Positions 38,718-43,013 of a stretch of 43,013 nucleotides of DNA are shown piece after piece. How positions within the stretch are numbered: the first letter of the stretch is position 1; each line of letters opens with the position of its first letter. The notes beneath the pieces are model-generated. The model was not told the DNA's origin. It searched no databases and saw only the letters and a program-made list of their open reading frames with translations. This DNA is from Oceanicaulis sp. (GTDB lineage: Bacteria > Pseudomonadota > Alphaproteobacteria > Caulobacterales > Maricaulaceae). Location: NCBI GenBank assembly GCA_022565365.1, contig JAIUMW010000004.1, positions 1-43,013 of the forward strand, read 5' to 3'. The position numbers and the translations under genes were made by a program.

Positions 38718-38976
38718 TTCTATGGGTTTGACAGTCGGCAACGCCTGCCACAGCGGACGCCCCGAAAATTTCCGGTACGAATTCTCTGGCGCCTGTCCAG
38801 GTTTCCTGTCACCCTTTGTGTCAATTCAGGGGCGGAGGACAACCGGGGCCCCTCGTTCCGGGACGGTTCGCCGCCAATGCCGCCGCCAGAATAAGGCAGC
38901 GGAAAAAGATAAACGTGGCGAGCCTTGGCGGCCCTTACCGCCGGTTATGACCACCCCGGGAGAGAAGGCACCCAAC

Positions 38977-39882
38977 ATGGCGCAGGCGGAGTTCGACCGG
39001 TTCGGATTGGCGGGACTCGCCCGCACGACGCAAGCTTCCCTGAATTGGAAGAACTGGGGACGCAGCTCAAAACCCTGCGACCTGGACAAGGCCGGACCGC
39101 CCAAGGAAGTGCTCGACAAGCTGATTGAGGCCGAGATCATTCCCCGCCTCATGCTGATCAATCGCGAAGCCGCCGAAGCCGAAGGCCCGGCCCGCCCCGC
39201 GTCGAAAAGCGTCGCCTTTGACGCCGTTCTGGTCGAAAGCTTCGCCCTGCGCACCGTGACCAGCGACCCTCAAGAGCTGGTGGACGAGGTCAATGGCCTC
39301 CTGTTCGCCGGCGCGTCCCATGACGACGTTCTGCTCAAGCTCCTCGCGCCTGCGGCACGTCATCTGGGTGATTTGTGGGCAGAGGATGTCTGCGATTTCG
39401 CCGATGTCACCATCGGCCTGATGAAGCTGCACCGTGTACTCGAGCGCATCAACGCCGACGCACCCTGCAATTTGGGCTCGGGCAAGGTGTCGCCGCGCGT
39501 CATGCTGGCGCCCGCGCCCGGCGAGCAGCACGTGTTCGGCATTGTCATGGTGGGTGAGTTTTTCGCCCGCTCGGGCTGGCGGGTGCGCTGCGAGTCGAGC
39601 CCGGACATGGATCATATCGTGTCCGCGGTTGTCGATACGCATTTCGACGTGATAGGCCTGTCGGCGAGTTCGGAAGCGAATATGAAGGACCTGAAGGCGA
39701 TGATCAAATTGATCCGCTCCAGGTCGCAAAACGCCGACATTATTATCCTTGTCGGAGGGCAATTGTTTAACGAGGACATGGGGCTGGCGCGGCGCATCGG
39801 CGCGGACGCGACGGCCACAGATGGCGTACGGGCGGTTGTCACAGCCGAAAGGCTGGTCCATAGGCTGGCGCAGGCGAGTTGA
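38977..39882 (+). CDS. aerR: AerR/PpaA-type B12-binding antirepressor (alternative ATG 38947)
   Basis: DVCDFADVTIGLMKLHRVLERI; HVFGIVMVGEFFARSGWRVRCESSPDMDHIVSAVVDTHFDVIGLSASSEANMKDLKAMIKLIRSRSQNADIIILVGG B12-binding fold; directly upstream of ppsR. Confidence 0.9.
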   Translation: MAQAEFDRFGLAGLARTTQASLNWKNWGRSSKPCDLDKAGPPKEVLDKLIEAEIIPRLMLINREAAEAEGPARPASKSVAFDAVLVESFALRTVTSDPQELVDEVNGLLFAGASHDDVLLKLLAPAARHLGDLWAEDVCDFADVTIGLMKLHRVLERINADAPCNLGSGKVSPRVMLAPAPGEQHVFGIVMVGEFFARSGWRVRCESSPDMDHIVSAVVDTHFDVIGLSASSEANMKDLKAMIKLIRSRSQNADIIILVGGQLFNEDMGLARRIGADATATDGVRAVVTAERLVHRLAQAS

Positions 39883-39911
39883 ATGTTTTGACCATAGCAC
39901 AAGGCGAATCC

Positions 39912-41351
39912 ATGGACATCAAGGCCTCAGAGGGCCCCAATGCAAGGTTCCAATCCCGCGAGATCGCCCGGTCGGCGTTCTCTGACGAGACGGCTGCGGA
40001 CCTCGCCGCAAACGCGGCTGACCTCGCCTTGCTGATCGACCATCGCGGCATTGTTCGCGACGCCGCCTTTTCCGGTGACGAGTTCTCCGAGGACGATGAC
40101 GCGTTTGACAGCTGGATCGGCCGCAAATGGATCGATCTGGTCAATGTTGATTCGCGCGACAAGGTCACCGCCCTCCTCGCCCCCCAGACCACGCCGGGCC
40201 AGCGCCGCTGGCGCCATGTGAATCACGTCCAGCCCAGCGGGCCGGACCTGCCGGTGCGCTATTTCACCCTGCCCACCGGGCGCGAGGGCTGGACGCTGGC
40301 CATCGGGCGCGATCTGCGCGCCGCGTCGCGCATGCAAACACGCCTGATCGAGGCCCAACGCTCCATGGAGCGCGATTATGCGCGCGTGCGCGAGGCCGAG
40401 ACCCGTTTCCGCCTGCTGTTCCAGCTGGCCGCTGAAGGCGTCATCATTATTGACGGCAACACATTCCGGATCACCGATGTCAATGCGGCGGCCTCGCGCC
40501 TGCTGGGGCGCTCCTCGCAGCGCCTGGAAGGCCGCTCGCTGGAAGGCGCGTTTGGCGCCGCTGCCGACATTGTGCGCGAAACACTGGCCGTTGCGCGCCG
40601 GACCGGGCGCACCGAGACCATCGAACTGACGCCGGACGGCGCCAAGAAGCCGTGCAAATTGCTGGCTTCGGTCTACCGCCAGGGGCGCGAGGTCTATTTC
40701 CTCGCCCGCATATCGGCCAAGGATTCTGGCGGATCGGCGGAAACCGACGCGTCCATGGCGCGCCTGGCCGCCATTCTGCCTGACGCTCTCGTGCTCACCG
40801 GCGAAGACGGCAAGATTCTGTCGGTGAATGAAGCCTTCGTCGAGATCGCCCAGCTGAGCGATATCGATTCTGCGGTAGGCATTCCGATCGAGTCCTATCT
40901 GGGCCGCACCGAAACCGAGGTGAACGTGCTGATGGCCAATCTGCGCGAGCATGGCGTCATCCGTAACTTCGCCACCCTGGTGCGCAGCCAGCATGATTTG
41001 CGCGAGGCGGTGGAAGTATCCGCGGTCGCCGCGCCCGGCCCCACGGGCATCGTGTTCGGCTTTTCGATCCGGCCTGTCGGCCGGCGTCTTGTCGCCGGAC
41101 GCCAGCGCGCTGGCGGCGCCATGCCCAGCACCGTCGATCAATTGTCTGATCTGGTCGGACGCGTCGCGTTGAAAGACATTGTGCGCGAGAGCACCGACAT
41201 GATCGAGCAGAGCTGCATCGAGGCGGCGCTGGCCCTGACCAATGATAATCGCGCCTCGGCAGCCGAGATTCTCGGCCTCAGCCGGCAAAGCCTTTACGCC
41301 AAGATGCACCGGCACAATATCGGCGAATTGCAGCCCAAATCCGAGCACTGA
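39912..41351 (+). CDS. ppsR: PpsR/CrtJ transcriptional repressor of photosynthesis genes
   Basis: PAS repeats and C-terminal Fis-type HTH IVRESTDMIEQSCIEAALALTNDNRASAAEILGLSRQSLYAKMHRHNIG; downstream of aerR. Confidence 0.96.
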   Translation: MDIKASEGPNARFQSREIARSAFSDETAADLAANAADLALLIDHRGIVRDAAFSGDEFSEDDDAFDSWIGRKWIDLVNVDSRDKVTALLAPQTTPGQRRWRHVNHVQPSGPDLPVRYFTLPTGREGWTLAIGRDLRAASRMQTRLIEAQRSMERDYARVREAETRFRLLFQLAAEGVIIIDGNTFRITDVNAAASRLLGRSSQRLEGRSLEGAFGAAADIVRETLAVARRTGRTETIELTPDGAKKPCKLLASVYRQGREVYFLARISAKDSGGSAETDASMARLAAILPDALVLTGEDGKILSVNEAFVEIAQLSDIDSAVGIPIESYLGRTETEVNVLMANLREHGVIRNFATLVRSQHDLREAVEVSAVAAPGPTGIVFGFSIRPVGRRLVAGRQRAGGAMPSTVDQLSDLVGRVALKDIVRESTDMIEQSCIEAALALTNDNRASAAEILGLSRQSLYAKMHRHNIGELQPKSEH

Positions 41352-41403: not shown

Positions 41404-42321
41404 ATGGAGCGCTCAGCCCCCTTGCCGTCACCAGACCTGCGAACGTCCTTGCTGGCGGTCGTGGAGCTGTCCAAGCCGGTCACCTGGTTTCCGCCCATGT
41501 GGGCGTTCGGCTGCGGCGTCATCTCGTCCGGCCAGTTCAGCCTCGACAATGTCTGGCTCCTGGTCTTCGGCGTGCTTCTGGCGGGGCCTTTGCTGTGCGC
41601 GGGCAGCCAGGCGGTGAACGACTGGTTCGACCGTGAGGTCGACGCCATCAATGAGCCCAACCGCCCAATCCCGTCAGGCCGCATTCCCGGGCGCTGGGGT
41701 CTTTGGATCGCCATTTTCTGGTCCGTCGCCGGCCTTGTCTGGGCGTCCTTTCTCGGTATCTGGGTCCTGGCCGCAGCCGCCGTCGGCGTCGCCCTGTCCT
41801 GGGCCTATAGCGCGCCGCCGGTCCGCCTGAAGCGCAGCGGCGTGTGGGGACCTTTGTCGGTTGGCATTTCCTATGAGGGCCTCGCCTGGTTCACCGGCGC
41901 CGCCGTGATGGCGCAGGCCCTGCCCGACGGGCGCACGATCCTTCTGGCCGTCCTCTACAGCCTGGGCGCCTATGGCATCATGGTGCTCAACGACTTCAAG
42001 GCGATCGAGGGCGACATCAAGATGGGGCTCAAATCCCTGCCCGCCGCCCTCGGCCCGCGCAAGGCCGCCTGGATCGCCTGCATCACCATGGCCGTGCCGC
42101 AGTTCGTCGTGATCGCCCTGCTCGCCGTCTGGAGCCAGCCCGTTTTCGCCGCCCTTGTCGGTCTGTCGCTGGCGATCCAGCTCGGGCTGATGGTGCGCCT
42201 GATGCGCGACCCCAAGGCGCTGGCGCCCTGGTACAACGCCACCGGCGTGATGCTCTACGTGCTGGGCATGCTGGCGAGCGCCTTCGCGCTCTCGGCCCTC
42301 AACCAGGCCGCCGGATCATGA
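41404..42321 (+). CDS. bchG: Bacteriochlorophyll synthase (geranylgeranyl/phytyl transferase)
   Basis: VELSKPVTWFPPMWAFGCGVISSGQF, GPLLCAGSQAVNDWFDREVDAINEPNRPIPSGRIPGRWGL UbiA-family motifs. Confidence 0.97.
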   Translation: MERSAPLPSPDLRTSLLAVVELSKPVTWFPPMWAFGCGVISSGQFSLDNVWLLVFGVLLAGPLLCAGSQAVNDWFDREVDAINEPNRPIPSGRIPGRWGLWIAIFWSVAGLVWASFLGIWVLAAAAVGVALSWAYSAPPVRLKRSGVWGPLSVGISYEGLAWFTGAAVMAQALPDGRTILLAVLYSLGAYGIMVLNDFKAIEGDIKMGLKSLPAALGPRKAAWIACITMAVPQFVVIALLAVWSQPVFAALVGLSLAIQLGLMVRLMRDPKALAPWYNATGVMLYVLGMLASAFALSALNQAAGS

Positions 42322-42527
42322 CGGGGCCGGCCCGTATCCCGCAAATGTGCGTCCGAAATCCCGTCTTTGGCGTCAAAACGCGCGCTGCGGCCGTGTACAG
42401 CCGCCGCATGACCCCGACAACCGGCCTGATGACCCCGAATGCCGGTTTGATGACCCCGAAAACCGGCCTGATGACCCCGAAAAACGCGGACAGCCTGTCC
42501 GGTTCGAGCGCCGCTGGAGGTGGATAG
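42318..42527 (+). CDS. Short repeat-containing ORF (69 aa) bridging bchG and bchP; translation unproven
   Basis: ATGA overlap with bchG stop; TAG overlaps the bchP GTG start (TAGTG); encodes MTPTTGL-MTPNAGL-MTPKTGL-MTPKNAD. Confidence 0.45.
   Translation: MTGPARIPQMCVRNPVFGVKTRAAAVYSRRMTPTTGLMTPNAGLMTPKTGLMTPKNADSLSGSSAAGGG
42408..42487 (+). repeat. 21-bp tandem repeat, about 3.8 copies, unit ATGACCCCGAAAACCGGCCTG
   Basis: ATGACCCCGACAACCGGCCTG / ATGACCCCGAATGCCGGTTTG / ATGACCCCGAAAACCGGCCTG / ATGACCCCGAAAAACGCG read directly. Confidence 0.93.
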
Positions 42528-43013
42528 TGACAGACCCGGTAAAGACCTATGACGCCGTCATTGTGGGCGGCGGACCGGCCGGCGCCACCGCAGCTCAAAA
42601 AATCGCCGAGGCCGGCGCCTCGGTTCTGCTGATCGACAAGCCCGGGCGCATCAAGCCGTGCGGGGGGGCGGTGCCGCCCAAACTTGTCCGCACCTACGAC
42701 ATCCCTGATTCCCAGATCGTCGCACGCACCCAGGGCGCGCGTATCCTCGCCCCCTCGGGCCTGGAAGTGGATATGCCCATCGGCGAAGGCTATGTCGCCA
42801 TGGTCGACCGCGAGCACTTTGACGAATTCCTGCGCGAGCGCGCGGCCAGTGCTGGCGCCGAGCGCCGCAACGGCACGTTCGAGACGTTGGAGCGCGATGA
42901 GCAAGGCGCTGCGATCATTGTATTTTCACCCACCGAGGCGCCTGACGAGCCCGTCCGGGTGCGCGCCCGTGTGGTGATCGCAGCCGACGGCGCGCGCTCC
43001 AAGCTCGCCCAGC
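42527..43013 (+). CDS. bchP: Geranylgeranyl reductase (3' end beyond window; GTG start)
   Basis: YDAVIVGGGPAGATAAQKIAEAGASVLLIDKPGRIKPCGGAVPPKLVRTYDIPDSQIVARTQGARILAPSGLEVDMPIGEGYVAMVDREHFDEFLRERA; GGAGG 6 nt before GTG; absent from the ORF track. Confidence 0.95.
   Translation, partial: MTDPVKTYDAVIVGGGPAGATAAQKIAEAGASVLLIDKPGRIKPCGGAVPPKLVRTYDIPDSQIVARTQGARILAPSGLEVDMPIGEGYVAMVDREHFDEFLRERAASAGAERRNGTFETLERDEQGAAIIVFSPTEAPDEPVRVRARVVIAADGARSKLAQ

Follow-up and report, generated by a model that had tools for sequence, protein, structure and literature searches.

The interval between the bacteriochlorophyll genes bchG and bchP in an Oceanicaulis sp. genome (G000) raises the question of whether a short open reading frame (ORF) that fits exactly between two genes is itself a gene. 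The window, the whole stretch of 43,013 nucleotides that was analysed, carries on its plus strand a ppsR/crtJ-type regulator with PAS and HTH_8 domains (39879–41351), followed by bchG (41404–42321), which encodes the bacteriochlorophyll synthase, a UbiA prenyltransferase (Pfam UbiA, 7.9e-39) with orthologs 77–93% identical in nine congeners. The downstream gene is bchP (42527–43013, +), encoding the geranylgeranyl reductase; the contig end cuts this gene, leaving its 5′ part, and the product matches Pfam FAD-binding families and shows 77–91% identity to its congeneric counterparts. As the initial annotation had described, one ORF of 69 codons (42318–42527, +) fills the interval. Its ATG overlaps the bchG stop codon as ATGA (42318–42321), and its TAG overlaps the GTG start codon of bchP as TAGTG. 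Overlapping stop/start joins of this type are the usual signature of translational coupling. The annotation had accordingly offered several readings of the ORF and its in-frame 21-bp repeats: a frame maintained to carry ribosomes from bchG to bchP, a new small protein, or the scar of a lost gene.

A gene has indeed been lost here. The flanking genes and their order are identical to those of the purple-bacterial bchG–orf427/orf428 (bch2)–bchP operon, and five congeners (G005, G002, G003, G011 and G010) keep the MFS gene intact, with a length of about 1.35 kb, between bchG and bchP, whereas it is absent in the window genome and four relatives (G013, G012, G001 and G009). This absence, already noted in the initial annotation, was judged against the nine bchG-bearing congeners and most Alphaproteobacteria. 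The sole PUCC-family gene in the window genome is lhaA, and in the five MFS-less species no PUCC-family gene of comparable score was found besides lhaA. In a tree of PpsR, BchG and BchP, the MFS-bearing and MFS-less sets split with 100% support, so that a single loss suffices; the MFS gene was lost once, recently, in the five-species clade. Among 80 surveyed loci, the MFS gene adjoins bchG in 64, while bchP directly follows bchG without it in 13, all from Chromatiales-type Gammaproteobacteria (L044, L054, L058, L070, L081, L082, L087, L096, L099, L102, L103, L105 and L109), and neither the MFS gene nor bchP lies within reach of bchG in the other three. The absence in the Chromatiales-type Gammaproteobacteria is independent. 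Since the loss of this widely conserved photosynthesis gene is dated within one genus, the need for it can be tested across close species.

We compared the spacer among the MFS-less species to assess the conservation of the frame. The window genome and its nearest relative, G013, have a common 205-bp spacer with zero indels, and the frame is open in both. Between them, 40 of 210 positions differ, distributed as 11, 11 and 18 over the three codon positions (17, 8 and 72 in bchG). The third codon positions of the ORF are mildly enriched in substitutions (18/40, p ~0.06), which counts against an incidental frame. Meanwhile, its dN/dS, from this one informative pair and hence of low power, was 0.59, as compared to flanking-gene values of 0.11 and 0.07, and was indistinguishable from neutral. 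The openness of the frame is likewise unexceptional, with P ~0.2 in dinucleotide shuffles of the spacer and 0.53 when the array was kept, and under simulated neutral change the frame stayed open in about half of the runs (P 0.5). As controls for divergence, we used fifteen other spacers of the same pair, some of which may hide short genes. Because these diverge by 17.2% with 0.026 indels per substitution, the 19.5% divergence of the bchG–bchP spacer without indels is ordinary; at the control rate, zero indels are expected with P ~0.35. The lack of indels was therefore rejected as a sign of coding, since, of the ten controls with a length of 100 bp or more, six have none either.

In the next relatives, G012 and G001, the frame is lost. 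The annotation had proposed asking whether relatives keep the frame while the length varies in 21-bp steps; these two spacers instead differ from that of the window genome by frame-disrupting indels of about 71, 8 and 6 bp, giving a length difference of 69 bp, and in both of them the frame ends after 35 codons at a shared in-frame stop (codon 36). Their repeats are read in a different frame than in G000. Disruptions of this kind in relatives are what the annotation had named as refuting its reading of a maintained frame. In G009, only a bare gap of ~50 bp separates bchG and bchP, and there is no ORF. On the other hand, the start region of bchP is unchanged. The gene has its own strong Shine-Dalgarno sequence, and its ribosome-binding site and start, GGAGGTGGATAGTG (42516–42529, +), are identical in G000, G013, G012 and G001, and thus also in two species without the ORF. 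Since the TAG of the ORF sits inside GGAGGTGGATAGTG, the TAGTG overlap is best read as a by-product of the conserved bchP start region rather than of a kept frame. The locus thus resembles translational coupling in its ATGA and TAGTG overlaps, but differs in that bchP has a separate Shine-Dalgarno sequence, conserved where the upstream ORF is missing. The 69-aa product has no match to a Pfam family, and its homologs elsewhere are low-complexity matches only; the cases that were checked lie in a linker gene or on the strand opposite to a GDINPF-repeat protein. BchP might also have extended N-terminally across the array, since that frame is open in the window, but a stop closes it in G013 and the extension was rejected. 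Taken as a whole, the sequence comparison suggests that the short ORF is unlikely to be a gene.

The repeat itself is real and far beyond chance. Tandem Repeats Finder (TRF) reported a period of 21 bp with 3.6 copies and 83% matches at 42408–42483, and no other tandem repeat in the window is as strong. The units lie on the plus strand at 42408–42428, 42429–42449, 42450–42470 and 42471–42491, and their translations are MTPTTGL, MTPNAGL, MTPKTGL and MTPKNAD. Of the four in-frame copies initially annotated, three are good and the fourth is partial, since only its first ~13 bp match well and its translation departs after MTPK. A degenerate outlying unit, TTTGGCGTCAAAACGCGCGCT (42366–42386, +), precedes unit 1 by 42 bp (±1 bp); its position weight matrix (PWM) score of 12.7 exceeds the 99.99% genome quantile of 10.9, and its G013 counterpart scores 12.1. 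The array scores 55.5 in the window and 54.9 in G013. Counted across species, the locus has four good units and one outlying unit in G000 and G013, and in G012 and G001 two degenerate units at a spacing of 21 bp. Within each unit, few of the differences separating G000 from G013 fall in the first 10 bp (1/16, permutation p 0.002), although the p value is 0.03 for an 8-bp window, 0.06 for a 12-bp window and 0.06 without the degenerate fourth unit. This hints at either a constraint on the unit core or homogenisation.

Conserved RNA structure was rejected, as the sense-strand z-scores of five spacers were between −1.5 and +0.9 (−0.49 for the window); the antisense strand of G001 gave −2.49. No significant hairpin was detected at the bchG–bchP locus, and five array loci including this one gave no Rfam match up to E = 1. 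Neither PpsR (TGT-N12-ACA) nor FnrL-like (TTGA-N6-TCAA) sites were present in any of five spacers, and no sigma-70-like promoter was found in the bchG–bchP spacer.

The repeat between bchG and bchP belongs to a clade-restricted, dispersed family of 21-bp-period arrays, usually of two to four units with the core [AT]TG[AT]CCCC, found mostly in DNA of low coding potential. A search of the genus with the spacer first matched a stretch of 36 bp in a proline/acid-rich linker gene (E 2.5e-8), and the idea that the array had been copied from this gene was superseded once more array loci emerged. In 1.64 Mb (54%) of the G013 genome, TRF found roughly twenty period-21 arrays, three of them with the core TGACCCCGAA. 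A profile search found further arrays, and its reversed controls were clean. When the unit PWM was summed over three units, 13 arrays in the same 1.64 Mb scored at least 22 at a lag of 21, as compared to none at lags of 17–20 or 22–25 and none in the reversed sequence. To avoid circularity, a hold-out PWM was built from arrays outside G013, and the G013 orthologs of these arrays were left out of the result. At lag 21 it gave five G013 arrays scoring at least 18 (maximum 36.5), and the other lags from 15 to 27 gave no such array. The median coding potential of fifteen array sites ranked at the 13th percentile genome-wide. Here a codon-usage score replaced ORF-based gene calls, as long spurious ORFs abound in high-GC DNA.

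A sequence model (R1), built from twelve seeds of which one proved false, was searched in 149 genomes with strict filters, under which some arrays will be missed. It gave 6 hits in G000, 7 in G001, 6 in G012, 10 in G013 and two in G006, whereas the remaining phototrophic congeners had no hits. One weak hit each appeared in G004 and in six genomes outside the genus, close to what noise would give at E 0.01; two of those inspected, in G145 and G146, look like coding sequence. The false seed, the G013 array at 209390, and its hits in G012 and G001 are purD coding sequence. After this false positive was excluded and overlapping hits were merged, about 4 to 7 loci per genome remained in G000, G001, G012 and G013. 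Searches of open-licence papers for intergenic repeats in these groups gave no result, and an earlier description of the family elsewhere is possible.

Further arrays were found in G001 and G012, and some loci reveal how their length changes. An intergenic array flanked by genes for an L,D-transpeptidase-like protein and a response regulator has orthologs in G000 and G001, and is shorter by exactly 21 bp in G001. Upstream of a lipoprotein gene, the G013 array is exactly 42 bp longer than those of G001 and G006 between fixed anchors. The gene contexts of the arrays are mixed, with tandem, divergent and convergent neighbours and one site inside the coding linker. The linker gene (L129:857-2008, L130:1083-2234) encodes a 383-aa protein without a Pfam match, with in-frame 21-bp repeats of the family core (DDPETRP), and its linker length and repeats vary among species. 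In addition, the N-terminal part of the L,D-transpeptidase-like ORF (L159:456-1082, L180–L182) consists of family 21-bp units, read as heptads such as FRGHEDA and GQNGPLD, and this array may be translated. With one member in a coding linker and another possibly translated, the arrays are not purely intergenic.

We consider it likely that the bchG–bchP spacer is the gap left after the loss of the MFS gene, filled by an array of the dispersed family, and that the 69-aa ORF is incidental. The bch2/orf427-type MFS gene was deleted once in the ancestor of the five species, and in four of them a clade-specific 21-bp-period array occupies the gap. At the transpeptidase-like and lipoprotein loci, arrays of the family change in length by whole 21-bp units, most simply, we suppose, by slippage or unequal recombination. 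One unit corresponds to seven codons, so that a frame without a stop in the unit stays open at any copy number, and the 69-aa ORF would be a frame of this kind, limited by the bchG stop codon and by a TAG that chances to lie within the ribosome-binding region of bchP. The in-frame repeats are thus explained by the divisibility of 21 by 3. The conservation of its Shine-Dalgarno sequence suggests that bchP is translated from its own site, and we infer that the ORF has neither a peptide function nor a needed role in bchP translation. More generally, the emergence of a tidy in-frame ORF, complete with in-frame repeats and with joins of the ATGA and TAGTG type, requires no coding function, as a repeat unit in multiples of three bases leaves frames open for free.

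Other readings of the spacer were weighed against this one. A real small protein, or a leader moving ribosomes from bchG to bchP, would fit the overlapping joins and the indel-free open frame of G000 and G013. However, the frame is open in this nearest relative only, being interrupted by stops and indels in G012 and G001 and absent in G009, while the bchP ribosome-binding site is retained; zero indels are usual among the spacers of the G000/G013 pair, the dN/dS is 0.59 and the product matches no family. Both coding proposals of the initial annotation are consequently very unlikely. The spacer might instead be a decayed remnant of the MFS gene, given that the ORF starts and ends where that gene did and that its first residues, MTGPAR, resemble by eye the MTDTAR of G005. 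Nevertheless, local alignments of two array-bearing spacers to the MFS regions of five congeners were no better than shuffles, and related arrays occur at many unrelated loci as members of a dispersed family, so that the earlier suggestion of a scar now appears extremely improbable.

The family itself could be questioned, if the likeness of the arrays were convergence among GC-rich, codon-like repeats. In favour of this, heptad repeats are frequent in coding sequence, G013 contains further period-21 repeats with no relation to the family, and one seed of the model proved to be plain purD sequence. Against this, the hold-out scan was specific to lag 21 with clean controls, orthologous arrays occupy matching intergenic places in several species, and the 149-genome search showed strong clade restriction, which together make convergence improbable. 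Regulatory DNA deserves somewhat more weight: the arrays may consist of direct-repeat sites with a spacing of 21 bp, or two helical turns, onto which a DNA-binding protein loads, here within the bchG–bchP operon. The fixed period at many loci, the conserved and substitution-poor core and the mostly non-coding placement are consistent with such sites, but the mixed gene contexts, even a coding linker, are unlike a regulon, the cores are degenerate at bchG–bchP in G012 and G001, and no PpsR, FnrL-like or sigma-70-like site occurs at this locus. We therefore regard a regulatory role in this operon as possible, though rather unlikely. Slightly more doubtful still is the full form of the proposal, in which clade-specific, helically phased arrays for a putative new DNA-binding protein have become dispersed over roughly ten or more loci in each genome, mostly between genes and among them the gap in the bacteriochlorophyll operon. 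If the arrays do bind a protein, gene loss would have been followed by the acquisition of a regulatory array in a bacteriochlorophyll operon.

The family invites comparison with known bacterial repeats. Like minisatellites and mycobacterial interspersed repetitive units (MIRU), it consists of short tandem units at many, mostly intergenic loci with whole-unit copy variation, seen here at two loci, and some MIRU likewise start or stop frames near gene overlaps. MIRU units are longer than 21 bp, however, and the present unit is much more degenerate; the likeness is one of organisation. Rickettsia palindromic elements are similarly dispersed between genes and, in frame, inside genes, but the present arrays are tandem direct repeats instead of single palindromic inserts, and the bchG–bchP locus has no significant hairpin. 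What emerges is a clade-restricted, dispersed repeat family with a fixed 21-bp period and a possible protein partner; the period, the partner and the spread of the family can all be tested.

Several minor observations accompany these results. On the minus strand of the window, an ORF of 201 aa (42299–42904) also crosses the array, with the heptad FGVIRPV; antisense frames over the G013 spacer are likewise open, with no sign of selection. The G013 photosynthesis cluster is split at the bchF–aerR boundary (window 38740–38774; L160–L165), with the aerR-ppsR-bchG-bchP part near 2.87 Mb and the remainder near 1.82–1.86 Mb. Its lhaA (L154:1993-3427) seems to consist of two frames, with runs of N at the join, so that the apparent split is an assembly or masking effect. 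Finally, another genus of the family (g9; L173, L174, L175 and L177) carries period-21 arrays of up to 13 copies, which on the opposite strand read as GDINPF-type heptads after an apparent signal peptide.
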